64,000 nt of DNA, taken from assembly GCA_012523365.1 (NCBI GenBank), contig JAAYIQ010000088.1, positions 1-64,000 on the forward strand, written 5' to 3'. The stretch comes from Clostridiaceae bacterium. GTDB taxonomy: Bacteria > Bacillota > Clostridia > Saccharofermentanales > Saccharofermentanaceae. Position 1 is the stretch's first letter. Each line of letters opens with the position of its first letter. Below are positions 50,699-54,841 of the stretch, one piece after another. A model generated the notes under the pieces. It was not told the origin of the DNA. It saw only the letters and a list, made by a program, of their open reading frames with translations, and did not search any database. The position numbers were made by a program, and so were the translations under genes.

Positions 50699-51193
50699 GT
50701 GAAGACCTTTTTGTTCCCCGGGAGCTTTGATCCGTTTTCCCTGGGGCATCAGGACATCGCCAAGCGTGCGGTTAAGTTGTGTGACCGCCTGATTGTGGCT
50801 GTTTTGAATAACCGTGGAAAGGAACCCGTTTTTTCTGCGGAAGAACGTGTTTCCATGGCGAAGGAGTGCATGTCCGAAGTGGATGGAGTCGAAGTGATTT
50901 TCCATGACGGACTTTTGGTCGATTTATATCGTCAGATTAATGCGTCCGCCGTCGTCAGAGGTCTTCGCGGCGAGTCTGATTTTCGAATCGAAGCAGAGAT
51001 GGCAGCGGCGAACAAACTGTTATTGCCGGAATACGACGTTATTCTTCTGCCGTGCAGTGCGGAAATGGTGTTTATCAGTTCCTCGACAATCAAGGAAGTC
51101 GCCTATTTCGGCGGGGATATATCCAGAATGGTGAATCCGCGGATCGTTGATTTCGTGCGATCCAAAATTGCGGAAAGGAAGGCAAAGATTTAA
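50699..51193 (+). CDS. coaD: Phosphopantetheine adenylyltransferase (GTG start)
   Basis: FPGSFDPFSLGHQDI, VVRGLRGESDFRIEAEMAAANK, ISSSTIKEVAYFGGD. Confidence 0.95.
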   Translation: MKTFLFPGSFDPFSLGHQDIAKRAVKLCDRLIVAVLNNRGKEPVFSAEERVSMAKECMSEVDGVEVIFHDGLLVDLYRQINASAVVRGLRGESDFRIEAEMAAANKLLLPEYDVILLPCSAEMVFISSSTIKEVAYFGGDISRMVNPRIVDFVRSKIAERKAKI

Positions 51194-51678
51194 TGGAGGA
51201 GTACGGGGGACAGGATACACGATCCAATCGCTCAAGCGAGACGGACCTTTTCGATTTGCTTGATCAACTGCAGGAGACGGTAACGCAAGCCAAGGGGCTC
51301 CCGTTTTCCGACAACTGTGTCGTGGACCGACAGGATGTTTTATATTGGATCAACCAAATTCGCGAGAATCTGCCCGAGGAGGTTCGACAAGCCCGATGGA
51401 TCGTCGAACAGAACCGCCAAATAGTCGCGAGTGCCCGTCAAAAGGCCGAGAGCATATTGCGTGAGACCGAGCAACGCTCAGCAATTATGACGGATGAACA
51501 TGAGATTACACTACGTGCCCGTGAAATGGCCCAAACAACGATTGACCAGGCGAATCAGGCGGCTTGGCAGATTCGTGTCGCTTCGACCGATTATGCAAGA
51601 CAGAGATTGACGGAGATTGAAAATCAGTTGACGGAGATGCTTGTGAAGGTGCAGAAGAATAAAAAAGAATTGAAATAG
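51193..51678 (+). CDS. Coiled-coil protein of unknown function
   Basis: Ala/Gln/Glu-rich helical protein; start codon overlaps coaD stop (TAATGG). Confidence 0.65.
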   Translation: MEEYGGQDTRSNRSSETDLFDLLDQLQETVTQAKGLPFSDNCVVDRQDVLYWINQIRENLPEEVRQARWIVEQNRQIVASARQKAESILRETEQRSAIMTDEHEITLRAREMAQTTIDQANQAAWQIRVASTDYARQRLTEIENQLTEMLVKVQKNKKELK

Positions 51679-51692
51679 ACAGGAGATTTCCG

Positions 51693-52901
51693 ATGCTATT
51701 GGGGATTCGAATCCGGAATTACACACTTTTCCTCGACGACAGAGCGGGAGCTCTTCTCGAGGATTTTTTAACCGGTACGGTCAATAATGCTCAAGCCGTA
51801 CCCGCGGGGATTTCGCAGGCTATTCCGCTCAGCAACCTAAACGCTTTGATCGGTCGCAATCAATCGGGAAAAAGCTCGTTTTTCGATTGTCTTTCTTTTA
51901 TTTCTGACTCTCTCTCGAAGGGTTGCGCGGAAGCGTCGGTGGTCCGGGATAGACCCGGGTTTTCAAGGCTCTTGAGCACCGGCGCGGATCACATGGAGTT
52001 TGAGCTGTTGTTCCTGATGTCAAACGGCCACAACCCGACACTCCCGAACGAATACTATATTGCGTATCAATTCGCTTTGGTTCCGGACGCGAACGGTAAA
52101 CCGTCCTATCAGTCGGAAAAAGTGATTTACAGCACACGACCGGAGAAAGCGGACCACATTGTGGTCCTCGATATGACCGATGCAAAAGGAAAGGTCATGT
52201 TCAACGATATTCTCATCGACGCGAGCCTTTCGGACCCCCGTCATTCCGCGTTGAGATCTTACGGGAATATTACCCAGTGCGCGATTTTGAATGCGCTTCA
52301 CAGAGAGATTACCCGCTGGTATTTCTGCCGGTTCAGTAATCCGAAAGGAAGAAACGGCGGCAAACAGCAGATTGCGCCGGGCGGGCATAAGCATTTGAAC
52401 AGTGACGGGTCCAACGTGAATAACGTCCTTGAGTTTTTAAAAAGCGATGATCCGCGACACTATCATCGGCTGATGGAGCGTATCACGGAAAGGATTCCGA
52501 CCGTCGGAAAAGTCAAGGATAAGCTTCCCGACGATTTCCGGGACAGCCCCAATCGGCTTTTCCTGTATCTTCTTTTGCTGAATGATCCCGTCCCAAGGCC
52601 GATGATCTGTGTTGAAACTCCCGATTTGGAGTTGTACCATGATATGGTTGATGTTTTATCGGGTGAATTTCGGGATTATACAATTCGTCACCCTTATTCT
52701 CAAATCATCTTTTCGACTCATAACCCATATATTCTCGAATCGGTTTCGCCGAAAGAGGTGTGGATATTTAAAAGGAGCGATGAGGATGATGCGGATTCCA
52801 CGGATATCCGATGCGCCGGTTCTGATCCGATCGTATCTGAAATGTACGATCAGGGAGTCGGTATGGGTGCGATTTGGTATTCGGGACACTTTGACGACTG
52901 A
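51693..52901 (+). CDS. AAA family ATPase (AAA_21/COG4637-like), divergent
   Basis: Walker A LIGRNQSGKSSFFDCLSFI; PRPMICVETPDLELYHDMV at Walker B position; IIFSTHNPYILESVSPKEVWIFKR H-loop region. Confidence 0.78.
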   Translation: MLLGIRIRNYTLFLDDRAGALLEDFLTGTVNNAQAVPAGISQAIPLSNLNALIGRNQSGKSSFFDCLSFISDSLSKGCAEASVVRDRPGFSRLLSTGADHMEFELLFLMSNGHNPTLPNEYYIAYQFALVPDANGKPSYQSEKVIYSTRPEKADHIVVLDMTDAKGKVMFNDILIDASLSDPRHSALRSYGNITQCAILNALHREITRWYFCRFSNPKGRNGGKQQIAPGGHKHLNSDGSNVNNVLEFLKSDDPRHYHRLMERITERIPTVGKVKDKLPDDFRDSPNRLFLYLLLLNDPVPRPMICVETPDLELYHDMVDVLSGEFRDYTIRHPYSQIIFSTHNPYILESVSPKEVWIFKRSDEDDADSTDIRCAGSDPIVSEMYDQGVGMGAIWYSGHFDD

Positions 52902-52915
52902 ATCGGAGAGACGGA

Positions 52916-53590
52916 ATGCGTTTTGAAGTTTTGACGGAAGATCGGTCGGGAGCCGTTATGGTGAGTCGACTGATGAGTAAAATCATTGATCCTTTGGTTT
53001 CGGACTACAACATTAGGATCCGCCCGCATCGCGGCAGAGGGGATGTTCCGTCCAATCCTTATCAGGCCCCCAAGGCGCAGGCCTCCGGTCTTTTGGATCT
53101 TCTGCCGGCGAAACTCCGCGCGTATGATCGCGTTTTTGCAGGCAGTGAAACTGTTCTGGTTGTGATCATGGATTCCGACTATCATTCCCCCGGTGAACTT
53201 AGGGACAGACTTATTTCATTATGCCGGAAGCATGCTCCTGCTCTTCATTCTGTGGTCGGTCTGTGCGTCGAAGAAACCGAGTCATGGCTGATCGGAGATA
53301 AGTCGGCACTGATGCGCGCGTACCCGGAAGCAAATATGTCCGTGCTCGACGAATACCGACAAGACAGCGTTTGCGGGACTTGGGAAATCCTTTGTCGGAG
53401 TATACTCGGCGCAAAGGCTGAACGAGTCATTCGCGTCGGTTACCCGGCAATCGGCCAATATAAGCATGATTGGGCCCAGAGGATATCAGAGTATATGGAG
53501 CCGGACAGGAATGCTTCTCCGAGTTTTCAGCGATTTCGTTCATACCTTTCCTACATGATCGAGAAGACATTGGAGAGTCACGGCCGATGA
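52916..53590 (+). CDS. DUF4276/Toprim-like protein, partner of the upstream ATPase
   Basis: FEVLTEDRSGAVM, VLVVIMDSDYHS (DxD), VGLCVEETESWLIGDKSALMRAYP resembling the E-x-E-x-W-L-x-D region of DUF4276. Confidence 0.65.
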   Translation: MRFEVLTEDRSGAVMVSRLMSKIIDPLVSDYNIRIRPHRGRGDVPSNPYQAPKAQASGLLDLLPAKLRAYDRVFAGSETVLVVIMDSDYHSPGELRDRLISLCRKHAPALHSVVGLCVEETESWLIGDKSALMRAYPEANMSVLDEYRQDSVCGTWEILCRSILGAKAERVIRVGYPAIGQYKHDWAQRISEYMEPDRNASPSFQRFRSYLSYMIEKTLESHGR

Positions 53591-54735
53591 ACAGGATTTC
53601 GGCCGCGTACATTCACATCCCGTTTTGTGTTCGTAAATGCCCTTACTGCGACTTTGTATCCTCGGATCATGACTTCGGCTTGATTCGCCCTTACGTGACG
53701 TCGCTGATCAGGGAAATCGAAATTACGGCCGACAGGGTGCCCGGCGGACCGTTAACAACGATTTATATCGGAGGCGGAACTCCGTCTCTTCTTGCTCCCG
53801 AGAGCGTTGATTTGATCATGAACACACTCCGGACTTCATTTGCTGTCGATGAGACCGCTGAAATAACACTTGAGGTTAATCCGGGTACGGTAAGCCTCGC
53901 GTCTCTTTCGGGTTATCGAAAAGCCGGGATAAACCGTATTTCGATCGGCGTACAAAGCTTTTCGAACGATATACTGAGGAACCTGGGCAGAATTCATACC
54001 GCCGAGGATGCGCTAAGATCCGTTGATACCTGCTTCGAGGCGGGGTTTCGGAATGTTTCCTGCGATCTGATGCTTGGCGTTCCCGGCCAAACCCGGTCTG
54101 ACGCGGAGCGATCCGTTCTCCTTCTGACTGAGAAGCGCGTGCCCCATATATCCTGCTATTCGCTCGGGCTTGAAGAGGGGACGCCTTATCATGCCCGATA
54201 TATGAATAACCCGGAACTTCTTCCTTCCGAAGATGAGGAACGGAAAATGTATCACAGTCTTCGAAGTATTCTGATCGGTGAAGGCTATATTCATTATGAA
54301 ATCAGCAACTATTCTTTGCCCGGATTCTTGAGCCGACACAACACGGTTTACTGGAAAGCCCTTCCGTATTACGGCTTCGGTTGTGGAGCACACTCGTATA
54401 CAAACGGGATGAGATCCGGAAACACGGTAAGTATACGGCGTTATGTTGATTTGCTCTCGTCGGAGAGCCCTGACCTCAATTTGCTGACGGATGAGTGTAT
54501 TTTGATTGACCGGGAGGAGGCAATGAAAGAATTCATGCTTCTCGGTTTTCGGCTGTTGGACGGAGTATCGGGACGGGAGTTTTCCGATCGATTCGGAGCC
54601 GATATGGCGCTTGTATTCAAACTGCAACTGGATGATTTATCGCGTCGCGGATTGATCGAAAAGACTCCGGACCGTATTTGCCTGAGCGAACCGGGACTGG
54701 ATTATGCCAATGAAGTTTTTCGAAGTTTTGTATAA
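53587..54735 (+). CDS. hemW: Radical SAM family heme chaperone HemW-like
   Basis: AYIHIPFCVRKCPYCDF, YIGGGTPSLL, GFGCGAHSY; ATGA overlap with upstream gene. Confidence 0.92.
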   Translation: MNRISAAYIHIPFCVRKCPYCDFVSSDHDFGLIRPYVTSLIREIEITADRVPGGPLTTIYIGGGTPSLLAPESVDLIMNTLRTSFAVDETAEITLEVNPGTVSLASLSGYRKAGINRISIGVQSFSNDILRNLGRIHTAEDALRSVDTCFEAGFRNVSCDLMLGVPGQTRSDAERSVLLLTEKRVPHISCYSLGLEEGTPYHARYMNNPELLPSEDEERKMYHSLRSILIGEGYIHYEISNYSLPGFLSRHNTVYWKALPYYGFGCGAHSYTNGMRSGNTVSIRRYVDLLSSESPDLNLLTDECILIDREEAMKEFMLLGFRLLDGVSGREFSDRFGADMALVFKLQLDDLSRRGLIEKTPDRICLSEPGLDYANEVFRSFV

Positions 54736-54814: not shown

Positions 54815-54841
54815 TTAGCAGTCAATGAATGCGAGTGCTAA
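54815..54841 (+). promoter_or_regulatory. CIRCE element (HrcA operator), one arm mismatch
   Basis: TTAGCAGTC-N9-GAGTGCTAA versus consensus TTAGCACTC-N9-GAGTGCTAA. Confidence 0.93.

Follow-up and report, generated by a model that had tools for sequence, protein, structure and literature searches.

The gene pair beside hemW

The window, by which we mean the whole stretch of 64,000 nucleotides analyzed, contains two adjoining genes on the forward strand that encode an ABC/AAA_21-type ATPase and a DUF4276 protein. The two ORFs are separated by 14 nt and lie directly upstream of hemW. The features of this region are:

50699..51193, + strand: coaD, the upstream housekeeping neighbor (family-specific context)
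51193..51678, + strand: coiled-coil protein of 161 aa in the same gene cluster, found upstream of the pair in family f1 only
51693..52901, + strand: ABC/AAA_21 ATPase, HEC-01A/AriA/AbiLi-like, 402 aa (ORF and profile matches)
52916..53590, + strand: DUF4276/HEC-01B putative Toprim-like nuclease, 224 aa (ORF and profile matches)
53587..54735, + strand: hemW, radical-SAM heme chaperone; its start codon and the stop of the DUF4276 gene share the sequence ATGA
54815..54841, + strand: CIRCE element with one mismatch, between hemW and hrcA

An earlier note on this DNA had placed the pair between coaD/coiled-coil and hemW, and the flanking genes are as it described; the full order is nth-recG-rsmD-coaD-coiled coil, ATPase-DUF4276, hemW, hrcA-grpE-clpP-dnaK-dnaJ. 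A promoter-like site and the CIRCE element separate the heat-shock genes from the pair and hemW, which suggests that the hrcA-grpE-clpP-dnaK transcript starts at CIRCE, downstream of both. Judging from gene spacing, the pair probably belongs to the upstream housekeeping transcription unit.

Several neighbors have features of their own. No Pfam family matches the coiled-coil protein, yet its identity to two congeneric copies is 96% and 93%; the corresponding values for coaD are 82% and 77%, and all other neighbors measured are lower except ClpP (94%). The fastest-changing gene measured in the region is hemW, with 57% and 51% identity between congeners against 60-96% for its neighbors. The clpP gene lies inside the CIRCE-headed heat-shock cluster here and in several relatives from the same family.

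The locus survey covers 68 fetched distinct loci and the window, 69 in all, from four families (f1-f4, with f1 the family of the window). In 69/69 loci hemW directly follows the DUF4276 gene, at a spacing of 0-358 nt and in inverted orientation in one case (L057, genome G125), where hemW alone is flipped and sits between hrcA and the ATPase-DUF4276 pair. This adjacency holds even in loci that differ in hrcA or in what lies upstream. In f1 the pair is preceded by coaD and the coiled coil; the f2-f4 loci that were read have genes for SPFH (stomatin-like), NfeD-like and M28-type peptidase proteins, named by eye from sequence. For example, L038, L045, L049 and L123 show, with the same by-eye names, the order (M28-type peptidase)-NfeD-like-SPFH/stomatin-like-(pair)-hemW. 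In the pair-less members of f2 and f3 that were read, the SPFH and NfeD-like genes run directly into hemW. Together with the varied flanks elsewhere, these junctions indicate that the pair's site is precise and that the bond between the pair and hemW survives rearrangement on both sides.

Motifs, predicted structures and relatives of the two proteins

The earlier note reported a 402-aa ATPase with the motifs GRNQSGKSS and FSTHNP, and 14 nt downstream a 224-aa protein with TED, IMDSD and EETESWL; all of these are present, GRNQSGKSS at residues 54-62 and FSTHNP at 340-345 of the ATPase. Two features of the ATPase go unmentioned there: Thr occupies the position of the second Walker B acid (ETPD), and FRDSP stands in place of the ABC signature. 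In the window copy, Walker A spans residues 54-61, the altered signature lies at about 283-287, Walker B contributes Glu308, Thr309 takes the place of the catalytic Glu and His343 is the H-loop residue. The order-wide conservation alignment (70 rows representing 69 distinct loci) has Gly54, Gly59 and Lys60 of Walker A in 70/70 rows and His343 in 68/70. The catalytic Glu is replaced in 61/70 rows and kept in 9/70, and the SDGT signature is kept in 2/70, from f4 genera g22 and g26 (one genome each). In contrast, all ten relatives from outside the order have both SDGT and a Glu-Glu Walker B. Within f1, the signature region reads SP-x-K/R-LF in genera g1-g4 and is a different derived sequence in g5; Walker B reads ETPD in g1-g4 (DTPD in one) and ES/EA-PD in g5, and each version is conserved within its genera. 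In the other families the catalytic Glu is exchanged for Asn, Gln, Ser or other residues.

Hydrolysis-competent ABC enzymes are recognized by the signature together with the catalytic Glu, and the window copy has neither. Class 1 OLD proteins also have a degenerate ABC signature, yet they hydrolyze ATP slowly (PMC7049728), so a lost signature is by itself no proof that hydrolysis has ceased. With the Walker A Lys retained in every row and the H-loop His in nearly all, while the Glu and signature are mostly lost, the sequences indicate that the resident ATPase probably still binds ATP and that its hydrolysis is probably impaired. The AlphaFold2 (AF2) model of the ATPase has a pLDDT of 87.9, and among solved structures it best matches those of the retron Eco8 effector, Thermus OLD, Gabija GajA and SMC heads.

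The acidic residues of the DUF4276 protein are fully conserved: Glu8, Asp9, Asp86, Asp88, Glu119, Glu120 and Glu122 are invariant in 70/70 rows, as are His38, Arg39, Trp124 and Lys183, among others. Its AF2 model (pLDDT 93.5) has β-strands at residues 2-7, 32-37, 79-86 and 111-117. Glu8 follows strand 1, the D86xD88 motif ends strand 3 and E119-E120-x-E122 comes after strand 4, so that along the sequence the model has the β-α repeats, the Glu after strand 1 and the DxD after strand 3 of a Toprim domain. Furthermore, the acidic order E...DxD...ExE resembles the two-metal site of P2 OLD, which consists of E398, D453/D455 and D541/E543 (PMC7049728). Fold and profile comparisons do not go as far. 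Foldseek of the model against the PDB gives generic α/β matches only, the best of which (E 0.04) is not Toprim, and a search of BFVD places one RloB-like viral model among the top matches (probability 0.99, TM 0.37). Profile comparison with the OLD Toprim domain is insignificant (probability 3.5%), with the catalytic residues in register; hhalign with RloB is likewise insignificant (1.2%), in register over DxD and E-x-W only, as is the comparison with RNase M5 (0.4%). A Toprim fold for the second protein, whose acidic pattern the earlier note had described as Toprim/DUF4276-like, is thus consistent with the predicted topology and the order of the acidic motifs, but the fold and profile searches gave no significant Toprim match. 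We call the protein Toprim-like and regard it as a putative metal-dependent nuclease.

HEC-01 is a candidate defense system of PADLOC-DB composed of an ATPase (HEC-01A) and a DUF4276 protein (HEC-01B). Both window proteins match these models far beyond chance, the ATPase with E = 4.8e-65 (PDLC04182) and the DUF4276 protein with E = 2.5e-64 (PDLC04205), and like the components of HEC-01 they adjoin. All 27 aligned ATPases match HEC-01A models; the window ATPase also matches Pfam AAA_21 (E = 1.6e-14). Against Pfam DUF4276 (PF14103) the window copy is below threshold, at 18.4 bits against a gathering threshold of 30.2 (E = 0.0028), and 21/21 aligned relatives match the family at E ≤ 0.1, the best at 2.5e-10. 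Sequence searches of the PDB with both proteins and with the DUF4276 profile returned nothing useful. In the literature library searched, no paper mentions DUF4276 and none with an experimental description of HEC-01 was found; the text of the 2021 PADLOC paper does not mention HEC-01.

The family to which the earlier note tentatively related the pair, that of two-gene ATPase-Toprim systems akin to OLD, PARIS and Gabija, agrees with the HEC-01A/B assignment and with the resemblance of the ATPase model to OLD, GajA and the retron Eco8 effector. The individual systems resemble the pair to different degrees. As in PARIS (AriA/AriB), an ABC ATPase and a small putative Toprim nuclease are encoded by separate genes, and the ATPase matches PADLOC AriA models (6e-13); unlike in PARIS, the second protein is DUF4276-like, and in PADLOC it matches HEC-01 models only, with no AriB match. 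With OLD, GajA and the Eco8 effector the pair shares the predicted ATPase fold and, for OLD, the acidic motif order, but it consists of two ORFs rather than one polypeptide, lacks an adjoining UvrD-type helicase or reverse transcriptase partner, and its DUF4276 protein does not match the OLD Toprim domain significantly in profile comparison. AbiL/RloAB is approached through the AbiLi match of the ATPase (4.7e-13, PADLOC) and the RloB-like viral model, though not through the RloB profile.

Distribution, inheritance and selection

The ATPase is found in 108/115 genomes of the window's family and in 62/62 near-complete ones; the seven genomes without it are bins of 74-86% completeness. Across the order, the ATPase occurs in 139/188 genomes and the DUF4276 gene in 137/188 (84/106 and 83/106 of the near-complete ones), and the pair is found in 20/30 genera. 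It is essentially single copy in the window's family. Second copies in G029 and G077 were considered as paralogs and rejected, as they carry the same downstream hemW and look like mixed-strain bins.

Outside the order, the distribution is patchy. The DUF4276 subfamily profile, searched in 391 Clostridia, finds matches in the window's order only and in none of about 375 others, and with the PADLOC HEC-01B model a relative turns up in 13 of 398 further genomes sampled across the phylum. Of the ten relatives from outside the order, one is carried by a conjugative Pseudomonas plasmid (pGLE121P3), one by a Rahnella prophage that itself resides on a plasmid and one by a gut phage contig; the prophage pair sits between replication and lysis genes. 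Within the order, no mobility or defense-island context was seen for the pair.

The pair tree groups f1, f2 and f3 as clades and follows the tree of hemW, hrcA, grpE and dnaK. Distances of the pair and of these four genes correlate with r = 0.87, a value not reached in any of 2000 permutations (best 0.18). Pair-less genera are nested among pair-bearing ones (FastTree), a pattern that we count as a single early gain followed by seven or more losses. Several pair-less clades keep hemW intact, mostly with hrcA too. Such clade-level losses show that the pair is not essential order-wide; it could still be immune.

Both genes are maintained under constraint. Between families, identity is 44% for DUF4276, 38% for hemW, 46% for grpE, 48% for hrcA and 31% for the ATPase, which therefore changes faster than its partner. 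Compared with locus L001, the ATPase has an omega of 0.073, indicating purifying selection; dS of DUF4276 is saturated. Neither gene has internal stops.

These patterns bear on the two characters that the earlier note had offered, defense-type or domesticated. A fixed cellular role in this lineage is favored by near-universal presence, a congruent tree and a locked position beside hemW, whereas a mobile defense cassette is not what is found in this order. Strictly vertical inheritance with no link to defense, which the earlier note had named as a refuting observation, is what is seen inside the order; beyond it, relatives reside on a plasmid and within a prophage. The accessory or mobile distribution expected of defense systems, though not a formal part of the HEC-01 definition, is absent: the pair is in 62/62 near-complete genomes of the family, at a fixed locus. 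In short, we read this as a candidate-defense pair that has become a resident module. Unlike HEC-01 elsewhere, it is vertically inherited beside hemW, and most copies have lost SDGT and the catalytic Glu.

A proposed resident nuclease module and its alternatives

We consider it somewhat probable (roughly 0.55) that the pair is a domesticated nuclease module of two genes, gated by ATP and akin to mobile HEC-01 pairs. An HEC-01-related pair would have entered the common ancestor of this order of Clostridia just upstream of hemW and then become a vertically inherited chromosomal module. The direction from mobile to resident is suggested by the patchy distribution and canonical motifs of the outside relatives, rather than by a rooted superfamily tree. 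The DUF4276 protein would act as a Toprim-like metal nuclease, partnered by the OLD/SMC-like ATPase; that they form a complex is proposed on the grounds that the genes are constantly paired and by analogy with PARIS, OLD and Gabija. The catalytic Glu and ABC signature would have been mostly replaced, with the f1 replacements conserved thereafter; since these motifs are conserved and Walker A is kept, ATP is probably a bound cofactor or a slow switch. In PARIS, AriB, a Toprim nuclease that cuts tRNA, is held by a hexamer of AriA until a trigger arrives (PMC12409363). By analogy, the ATP-bound ATPase may hold or license the DUF4276 nuclease, and the likeliest role would be that of a resident host nuclease surveying abnormal or foreign nucleic acid. 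We advance only tentatively the stricter version, in which an antiviral-type pair was domesticated at the base of the order and its ATPase repeatedly became a regulatory subunit that binds ATP without hydrolyzing it, with the nuclease site unchanged throughout.

The main competitor is a working anti-phage system of the PARIS/HEC-01 type, fixed as core innate immunity, in which the ATPase senses infection and frees or activates the nuclease in abortive infection. The PADLOC matches to HEC-01A/B, AbiLi and AriA, the closeness of the ATPase fold to defense ATPase-Toprim proteins and the occurrence of related pairs on a conjugative plasmid and within a prophage all point this way, and the recurrent loss of the pair from whole clades would suit a trait that is useful only under some conditions. 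Universal presence and a congruent tree in the family, slow evolution, derived ATPase motifs and the lack of defense neighbors argue against it, as does the lack of an experimental description of HEC-01 in the literature found; we hold it to be possible but doubtful. A decaying selfish or defense remnant, drifting under weak constraint, could explain why most copies have lost the catalytic Glu and ABC signature. It is already contradicted by the invariant DUF4276 site, the low omega, the intact reading frames and the conservation of the replacements SP-x-K/R-LF and ETPD themselves through g1-g4, and can hardly be sustained.

Housekeeping RNA processing, such as replacement of the Toprim enzyme RNase M5 in 5S rRNA maturation, would agree with the finding that RNase M5 scores above the curated cut-off in none of the order's 188 genomes, and with the resemblance of the AriB active site to M5 (PMC12409363). 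However, order members without the pair lack M5 too, about half of the other sampled Clostridia, also pair-less, have no M5-like match, and DUF4276 has no profile similarity to M5. As M5 is absent with or without the pair, there is no complementary pattern, and we rejected the replacement; RNA processing as a whole is improbable. Slightly less credible still is a functional partnership with HemW in heme insertion or with the heat-shock operon. The constant adjacency to hemW, even with hrcA or the upstream genes elsewhere, and the stop/start overlap in the window favor such a link, but hemW remains by itself after loss of the pair, CIRCE and the promoter-like site set the heat-shock genes apart, and operon freezing accounts for the adjacency without joint function.

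On the preferred reading of a domesticated module, a pair that PADLOC labels as candidate phage defense nevertheless behaves as a core gene in this order, and counting its HEC-01 matches as defense may inflate the defense repertoires reported there. The pair offers a natural setting in which to study how immune modules turn into resident functions of the cell and what role the HEC-01/DUF4276 family has. The contrast between resident copies, most of which lack the catalytic Glu and the signature, and mobile copies, with both intact, would reveal whether hydrolysis is needed only for the immune mode. If the stricter version is true, this is a bacterial case of immune machinery turned to housekeeping or constitutive immunity.

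Outside the order, defense islands were considered at three loci and no consistent island emerged: the chromosomal loci L200 and L202 lie near transporter and epimerase genes, and L197 lies near a gene for a UvrD-type helicase, which may simply be an ordinary pcrA. The unrelated genus g254, from which L200 and L202 were opened, has HEC-01-type pairs in three genomes and is a possible second resident case.
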